Shown one piece after another: positions 14,011-15,739 of a stretch of DNA of 64,000 nucleotides (position 1 is the first letter of the stretch; the number at the start of each line of letters is the position of its first letter). The DNA is from Haladaptatus sp. R4 (GTDB taxonomy: Archaea > Halobacteriota > Halobacteria > Halobacteriales > Haladaptataceae), in assembly GCF_001625445.1 (NCBI RefSeq), contig NZ_LWHG01000021.1:496001-560000 (forward strand), in the 5' to 3' direction. The notes below the pieces were generated by a model. That model was given only the letters and a program-made list of their open reading frames with translations. It ran no database searches and was not told the DNA's origin. Position numbers and translations under genes: made by a program.

Positions 14011-14661
14011 GAGTGAATCACGTCGATACTCCGAACAGAGACAATTTTCTGGAATTGCGAGTGCAGCACCGACGATGACGAGTTAAGAACGCCCCCGCCC
14101 GTTCGCTACGTAGAGAAGAGTTTGATTGATGTGTGGTTGCAGTTACTGAGAAGTAGACTTCGAAAGCCCCCGCCACGCTCGTGGTCGTTGCACGGGATAT
14201 TTTGGCCTCCCCGCACCGCACGGCCAAAATACTGGCCCGTGCAAGCGACCAGACGAGCGCGAGCGGACGGCCCCTTTCAATCCACCCACACCACCGCAAC
14301 GGTCCACACGCCTCCCCAACCGATTCCCTCAGTTCGTTTCACTCACTTCGGTCATCCCTCACGCGGGCGCACCACGGGTGCGCCTTCGCGTGCCGTGTGG
14401 TCGATTAGTATCACCCATCCCATTCAGCCAAGCGGCGCGCGCGAAGGAATATGGTTGGGGAGACACGTGGGAGGTTGCGGCGGTACTCATGCGGTTCGGC
14501 CGTTGTAATCACGGCCTTACCAGAAACAACGTTGAGAGAGCTGGCGGGGGCTTTCGAAGAAGTATTCCCGGTGATTCCACTCACAAATCCACCAAACACG
14601 TCTCCTTGGCGTCGCCCGTAAGCCCAAAACGCTAACCAACTCACGGTCGTCCCGTTCCAAA
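14011..14661. other. 650-nt gene-free region holding a structured inverted-repeat element
   Basis: No convincing reading frame. The middle (14158-14559) is an element with terminal inverted repeats and several internal stems, described separately. The last ~100 nt before ATG 14662 should contain the promoter of the xylose dehydrogenase gene. Confidence 0.7.
14158..14559. repeat. 402-bp element with 18-bp terminal inverted repeats and nested hairpins
   Basis: Left arm CTTCGAAAGCCCCCGCCA (14158-14175) is repeated exactly in inverted orientation at 14542-14559. Inside are: a long imperfect hairpin at about 14176-14256 (arms TTGCACGGG / CCCGTGCAA); an outer stem CTCCCCAACC (14312-14321) / GGTTGGGGAG (14453-14462), with pairing extending into flanking CCGCAAC / GTTGCGG; and a GGCGCACC / GGTGCGCC stem-loop within. 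There is no transposase. This could be a MITE-like non-autonomous element or a large structured RNA. A short AAGTA occurs near both ends but does not abut the left arm, so target-site duplication is unproven. Confidence 0.75.
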
Positions 14662-15739
14662 ATGGAACTCGCAGAGCACCTCGATACGATCACTCGACGA
14701 GATTGGCAGACGATAACTGAACCGGAGGAAACGGTTCGCTTCGCGCTGATCGGTCTTGGCTGGTTCACGACGGAGGCGGTCGTTCCCGCCCTGCGCGAGA
14801 GTACGCTTTGTGAGGTGGGTGCGGTCGTCAGCGGATCACCCGAAAAGGCCGCTCGACTCCGCGACGAAACGGGTGCCGACCGAGCGCTGAGCTACGAGGA
14901 ATTCCACGACGGGGAGGGGACCGACAGTTACGACGCGGTGTACGTCGCCACGCCGAACGCCACCCATCTGGCGTTCGTGGAGACGGCCGCGGACCTCGGT
15001 AAGGCCGTCCTCTGTGAGAAACCGATGGAGGCCTCGGCGGCGCGCGCCGAACGACTGGTCGAGGTCGCCGAGACGGCGGGTATTCCGCTGATGGTCGGCT
15101 ATCGAATGCACACGAATCCGGCCGTCCGACGGATGCGCGAACTCGTGCGGGACGGGTTCATCGGCACGCCCGCACTGGTCGAGGGATCGATGTGCCAGAA
15201 CGTCTTCGAGATGATTTCGCCGGACCCGAACCTAGTGGCGACTCGACGCCGACCTCGCGGGCGGGTCGGCGCTCATCGACCTCGGTATCTACCCGCTGAA
15301 CACGGCCAGATTCGTCCTCGATTCCGACCCGGTGAGCGCACAGGGGACGACGAAGAGTCCACACGAACATTTTTCCGAGGTGGACCAGCACGTCTCGTTC
15401 GAAGTCGAGTTCGGAAACGGCGTCACGGCGGCGTGCGTCGCCAGCCAGTACGCCCAGCGGGAGAGTCGGTTCAGCGTGATCGGAACGGAAGGGGGACTCA
15501 CGCTCTCCCCGGCGTTCTTCGGCGAGTCCCAGTTGACGGTCGAGCGGGGCGATACGAAAGCCGCGCTGTCCGTCGAACCCGTGAACGAGGAAGTCGAGGA
15601 GTTCGACTACTTCGCCGACCGCTTGCTCTCGGGCCGCGACCCGGAACCCGACGGACGACACGGACTGGTCGATATGCGGGCCATCGAAGCGATTTACGAG
15701 TCTGCGGAAACGGGAAAACGAGTGCGCGTCGAAGACTGA
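14662..15739 (+). CDS. gfo6: D-xylose 1-dehydrogenase-like Gfo/Idh/MocA oxidoreductase, one frameshift
   Basis: About 358 residues. The N-terminal Rossmann fold has VRFALIGLGWFTTEAVVPAL, YVATPNATHLAFVE and CEKPME with the active-site Lys. The C-terminal domain has GGSALIDLGIYPLNTARFVL and VIGTEGGLTL. MELAEHLDTITRRDWQ is the N-terminus typical of the haloarchaeal NADP-dependent xylose dehydrogenase (Gfo6/XacA) that oxidises D-xylose to xylonolactone. The two frames meet near 15235. Removing one T from AACCTAGTGG restores NQWRLDADL, so this is an apparent insertion, unlike most other breaks here. The match is from memory of the family; glucose-fructose-type relatives are an alternative. Confidence 0.78.

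Follow-up and report, generated by a model that had tools for sequence, protein, structure and literature searches.

The window analysed here, a stretch of 64,000 nucleotides of Haladaptatus sp. R4 (contig NZ_LWHG01000021.1, positions 496,001 to 560,000), contains a gene-free interval of approximately 650 nt in which no transposase gene is found, as the original prediction for this locus had stated. The exact 18-bp inverted repeat described there is present, with CTTCGAAAGCCCCCGCCA on the plus strand at 14158-14175 and its perfect reverse complement at 14542-14559, and the nested stems proposed between the two copies are confirmed by a hairpin at 14198-14231 (arms 14198-14207 and 14222-14231) and by additional stems within the interval. 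The minimum free energy of the interval is -204.7 kcal/mol on the plus strand and -230.5 kcal/mol on the minus strand, with z-scores of -8.3 and -8.8, respectively, against dinucleotide shuffles, none of which (0/100) folded equally well. Rfam 15 gave no match in the window at either gathering or relaxed thresholds, the hits being of chance level (E 0.6-2.5), in agreement with the earlier remark that signatures of RNase P RNA and SRP RNA were not recognised.

What could not be maintained is the view of a lone 402-bp element bounded at 14158 and 14559 by these repeats. The search for further copies suggested at the time returned 97 BLAST matches in the same genome, grouped into approximately 40 sites, with identities of 67-98% in the matched parts, and when the window is set side by side with the orthologous intergenic regions of the relatives G003 and G004, the differing interval proves wider, at ~14041-14615. 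The 18-bp repeats are not the termini of the element: read directly from the sequence, the left one forms, on the minus strand, the 3′ terminus of the hairpin called here module A, and the right one belongs to an inverted tail unit, with inverted similarity running past both repeats (14113-14175 with 14542-14604; 63 nt, 73%).

From left to right, the copy begins with an outer tail unit of ~75 bp on the minus strand (14087-14161), with one copy of a GGCGGGGGC(G/T)TTC motif that occurs as GAACGCCCCCGCC at 14087-14099 and as GAAAGCCCCCGCC at 14162-14174, i.e., 75 bp apart, the spacing in many family copies being 68-78 bp. Module A, a hairpin of 126 nt, follows on the minus strand (14160-14285), supported by covariation and by a score of 127.1 bits (E 4.8e-31) with the covariance model R1, of whose seed the window copy is itself a member; its apical stem P5 and loop (TATTTTGGCC/GGCCAAAATA) lie at 14198-14231, on the same strand. 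Module B, a block also present in other genera, consists of two inverted arms on the plus strand (14290-14321 and 14453-14484, 78%), of which the 5′ arm (14290-14325) includes CCTCCCCAACCGATT at 14311-14325 and the 3′ arm (14453-14484) carries GGTTGGGGAG. These arms enclose module C, a central branched region (14352-14450) with TCATCCCTC at 14352-14360, a hairpin at 14365-14384 and an inner stem reaching ~14450, which is shortened relative to the fuller copies L003, L006, and L007. Comparison by eye indicates that a second module A is absent from the next segment, on the plus strand (14485-14541), an A-less type of end that recurs, again by eye, in L003, L049, L053/L077, and L379, and the copy closes with the inverted tail unit on the plus strand (14542-14604), which includes the right 18-bp repeat.

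The fuller form found in Haladaptatus (L006, L007, L050) has the inverted symmetry of tail units, A, B, C, B′, A′, and tail units, and the window copy is a reduced and worn member of this dispersed repeat family. Adjoining the element, a GFO/IDH/MocA oxidoreductase (14662-15739) is split across two reading frames, with its N-terminal domain extending to ~15243 and its C-terminal domain at 15380-15739, which may reflect either a broken gene or an assembly error.

The hairpin of module A and its strand

An alignment of 43 copies of module A, of which the 23 from the own genome have a mean identity of 74%, shows stem P1 (GAAAG/CTTTC) separated from P2 by an internal loop of GGG/GGG, then an asymmetric loop, itself conserved, leading to P3-P4, and, after a C-TAT/ATAT loop, the stem P5 with the apical loop. 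The stems P2, P4, and P5 are variable and the loops conserved, the GGG/GGG and C-TAT/ATAT loops being nearly invariant despite being unpaired. The covariance modelling proposed with the original prediction found the fold to be kept: 97.1% of the paired cells stay paired across the 43 copies, and double changes occur at 20 of the 37 base pairs, in 173 cells, as against 55.3 +/- 6.2 in shuffled alignments (0/500) and 10-29 in slid controls. Similar changes that preserve pairing are found between orthologous loci, with eight for L056/L062, eight for L056/L068, five for L059/L063, and four for L053/L077, comparisons in which wobbles are few, and just 0-2 for each of the more similar orthologous pairs of G188 and G297. 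Compensatory changes in module A therefore exceed the controls, as fits either an RNA or a single-stranded DNA, and the alternative foreseen at the outset, of a single unconserved copy lacking compensatory changes, is contradicted by these changes and by the number of copies.

Wobble pairs bear on the strand involved, the G-rich strand of module A corresponding to the minus strand of the window. In 108 copies aligned without the use of structure, 120 G.U cells are found on the G-rich strand against 33 A.C cells, and when each column is counted once per group, 47 are found against 23 (p = 0.006), nominal p-values overstating the evidence because the copies are related. When P2 was counted in 221 distinct hairpins without any alignment, the totals were 122 against 47, made up of 77 against 31 in one rough type and 45 against 16 in the other. 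Halorussus alone has no such asymmetry (13 against 10), and G.U accounts for 3.7% of all cells. Given this bias, the G-rich strand, whether RNA or single-stranded DNA, probably represents the functional form, and the sequence comparisons lend moderate support to a folded single strand of this polarity. The suggestion of a large structured RNA thus survives in part: covariation and the strand bias of the wobbles speak for a folded single strand, and the closing stem that the 18-bp repeats were thought to form is a by-product of the tail units that is not conserved.

A number of other arrangements were observed around this hairpin. A second hairpin type (L184, L185, L189, L201, L204, L235) has the same ends and GGG/GGG loop with a different core, and is frequently found in inverted pairs, 30-45 bp apart. 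L010, L020, L035, and L042 share a junction, GAACGTCTTCCGGAGGACCGCGAG, within module A, as if a small insert broke the hairpin. Three tail units of ~70-76 bp lie 3′ of module A in L168/L169, near-identical within a species and differing between species, a pattern that resembles concerted evolution. In Halorussus (L117-L119), tandem repeats of ~30 bp (CGGTGACRCAGACCACC-like) are located upstream of module A, and several repeats similar to tRNA 3′ ends (GGGAGTTCAAATCTCCCTCTCGGCG) adjoin a copy in L351 (~1520-1860), perhaps as old integration scars.

Breadth, context and turnover of the copies

At E ≤ 1e-4, and with no more than 12 candidates scored in any genome, the model R1 matches 145 of the 292 Halobacteria genomes sampled and 55 of 77 genera; the weakest of these matches may be partial copies, hairpins of the second type, or chance. 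Where more candidates were scored, at least 75 copies were found in G297 and at least 32 in G188, and two Halorussus genomes yielded at least 97 apiece. A phylum-wide sample at 1e-8 returned 6 of 197, all of the same order, and nearly all the named hits among the matches listed in a pattern scan are Halobacteria, from at least about two dozen genera. One hit of that scan in SAR202 (L245) has no model match, and is likely due to chance. Copies are also carried by megaplasmids, where they are mostly unannotated, and four queries of phage records gave no match. It is thus well supported that a structured, non-coding repeat family exists in high copy number across the class. Searches of the literature by sequence and topic did not find the family, which appears undescribed, an earlier description being possible given that subscription papers and preprints lay outside their scope.

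None of the 84 copies examined for context overlaps a predicted gene, and the flanking genes, called with a simple codon model, are tandem-forward in 27 cases, convergent in 21, tandem-reverse in 19, and divergent in 17, which is close to random and presents no orientation bias. No Pfam family occurs in more than two of the 103 flanking proteins among the matches listed, and no recurrent transposase family is found beside the copies on the same basis. The genes enclosed between two outward-facing copies of A (L190), considered as a candidate autonomous element, are ordinary-looking.

Which sites are occupied varies from one species to another. G003 and G004 lack the element at the site of the window copy, where they have a gene for an arylamine N-acetyltransferase (PF00797), and in G000 the element is immediately preceded by a short sequence resembling the start of this gene, which looks like a remnant of it. 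In Halorussus, copy 2 of G018, with ~200 bp around it, is missing from four other species (G316, G016, G315, G019), and copy 1 from G316; three copies of G018, each in a different intergenic region, have the same sequence over A with differing flanks and tails, and this identity could be due to gene conversion rather than transposition, because the tails differ. The copy L341 of G003 has no trace in G004, and at L347/L379 G004 lacks just A. Ten copies of G297 were compared with G188, L158 being judged from one side only and L174 being left out: four (L148, L152, L161, L167) have flanks lying 138-328 kb apart in G188 and represent synteny breakpoints, and G188 lacks the element at the sites of L160, L154, and L171, with an apparent collapsed hairpin at L160. 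G297 also shares four other copies with G188.

The non-shared sites would be insertions rather than losses, as we infer from these comparisons, and at the G018 sites the four species without the copy, considered without a tree, favour this polarity. Elsewhere loss is possible, given the remnant at L160, and both L160 and L379 resemble losses. Several copies are found at corresponding loci of different species, so many copies are old, and the fact that they still pair points towards either a function at the locus or gene conversion. The family is likely mobile. As regards the MITE-like element originally proposed, mobility is supported by the many dispersed copies and by their presence or absence between relatives, and of the hallmarks of MITEs neither target duplications nor transposase-matching ends were found at the sites and neighbours compared; no duplication was recognised at L341/L378, the G018 copies, or L160, sites where the flanks have diverged.

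Explanations for the family

The explanation that we hold to be somewhat probable takes the window copy as a decayed member of a mobile repeat family, non-coding and non-autonomous, whose folded single strand would be recognised by a factor acting in trans. The spreading unit would be built on module A and its short flanking sequences, in many cases with C and B before them and at least one tail unit of ~75 bp after them, and in Haladaptatus it would often be an inverted double. Once exposed as RNA or single-stranded DNA, the G-rich strand of A may fold into the hairpin, presumably the recognised form, whose conserved loops would be bound by a putative protein supplied in trans. This protein, on which mobility would depend, may insert further copies between genes, leaving no recognisable duplication of the target, and the copies could afterwards lose arms, exchange among themselves, and seed rearrangements. 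This account draws support from copy number, breadth, fold conservation, strand bias, presence and absence, turnover, and intergenic placement, and it is weakened given that no target duplication, partner enzyme, or recurrent neighbour family was found, that Halorussus lacks the wobble asymmetry, and that some non-shared sites appear loss-like.

It is a tentative possibility that the copies work at the RNA level, whether by supplying the template or guide to an RNA-mediated mobile system or by acting in trans together with a dedicated binding protein. A multi-copy family of structured RNA genes, in which the G-rich strand of A is transcribed and bound by protein and dispersal is a by-product, seems unlikely: invariant loops with covarying stems form a mosaic typical of structured RNAs, and both the wobble asymmetry and the pairing kept by double changes at orthologous loci (eight for L056/L062) favour it, whereas the inconsistent position relative to genes (27/21/19/17), the great differences in copy number among relatives, the mere 3.7% of G.U cells, and the absence of any conserved promoter noticed by eye speak against it. 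A narrower form of the preferred explanation, in which the family is a non-autonomous element of the IS200/IS605 type (PATE-like), moved as single-stranded DNA by an HUH transposase, would account for strand-specific hairpins, high copy number, and the lack of a recognised target duplication, and PATEs are abundant in Haloquadratum (PMC3119063); yet the PATE region of HRTV-DL1 (OP630574, gap between ORF2 and ORF3), where one PATE was compared, gave no BLAST or model match, and no recurrent transposase family stands beside the copies among the matches listed, so we regard it as quite unlikely.

Template switching at DNA hairpins combined with gene conversion, without any selected single-strand function, could explain why double changes greatly exceed wobble intermediates at orthologous loci and why tail units are similar within a copy and different between species. 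Such a process is strand-symmetric, yet the wobbles are asymmetric, and the GGG/GGG and C-TAT/ATAT loops are nearly invariant though unpaired, which makes it improbable. It is highly improbable that the hairpins are transcription terminators or mRNA-stabilising repeats of the REP/BIME type, which are likewise intergenic and of high copy number, given that convergent genes are not in excess (21 convergent, 17 divergent, 46 tandem) and that the module far exceeds the 20-40 bp of REPs (PMC3733652). The exact inverted repeats of the window copy might still recall a classical MITE, belonging to a cut-and-paste transposon and ending in terminal repeats of 18 bp, an already disfavoured reading to which we give the least credence, since these repeats are hairpin and tail-unit sequence rather than ends, no target duplication was recognised at the compared sites, and no transposase with matching ends was seen.

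With up to ~100 copies per genome across the class and a compensatory fold absent from Rfam, the family would rank among the more abundant unannotated structured elements of archaea. As copies lie at differences in gene content and at synteny breakpoints, they bear on the rearrangement of haloarchaeal genomes, and the partner enzyme or binding protein is a testable question that the family raises.

Comparison with known repeat systems

In contrast to MITEs, which have terminal inverted repeats at their ends, the 18-bp repeats are internal and the similarity runs beyond them. The REPs associated with RAYT transposases are intergenic palindromes, as are the present copies, built from units of 20-40 bp with a GTAG or CGTC tag, and their mobilisation has been proposed to occur via a transposase that recognises single-stranded DNA (PMC3733652); the size of the present family does not fit, and no RAYT family is found among the listed neighbour matches. 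Compared by description, the bcr1-type repeats of the Bacillus cereus group (PMC6542083), which measure 100-400 bp and reach 130 copies, are likewise dispersed and have features of mobile elements, but they occur in a single group of bacteria and are associated with a TTTAT motif.

Within the haloarchaea, the SMR-A elements of Haloquadratum resemble the family in size (~110 bp), in their prominent inverted ends, and in occurring in tens of copies (PMC3119063); they lack a target duplication, none having been recognised at the compared sites of the present family, and their mobilisation is likewise unexplained. Their copies are commonly >95% alike and target the palindromes of PATE/IS605 elements (PMC3119063), whereas, comparing by description, the copies of the present family average 74% in the own genome and sit between ordinary genes. 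The PATEs of Haloquadratum and Halorubrum are transposase-free, non-coding elements without target duplications that reach nearly two hundred per genome and have near-terminal palindromes without terminal inverted repeats (PMC3119063, PMC10544981). The family resembles them in being non-coding and palindromic, in its high copy number, and in that neither a transposase nor a target duplication was found, and it departs from the PATE structure in its 126-nt hairpin with covarying stems, often arranged in inverted doubles.
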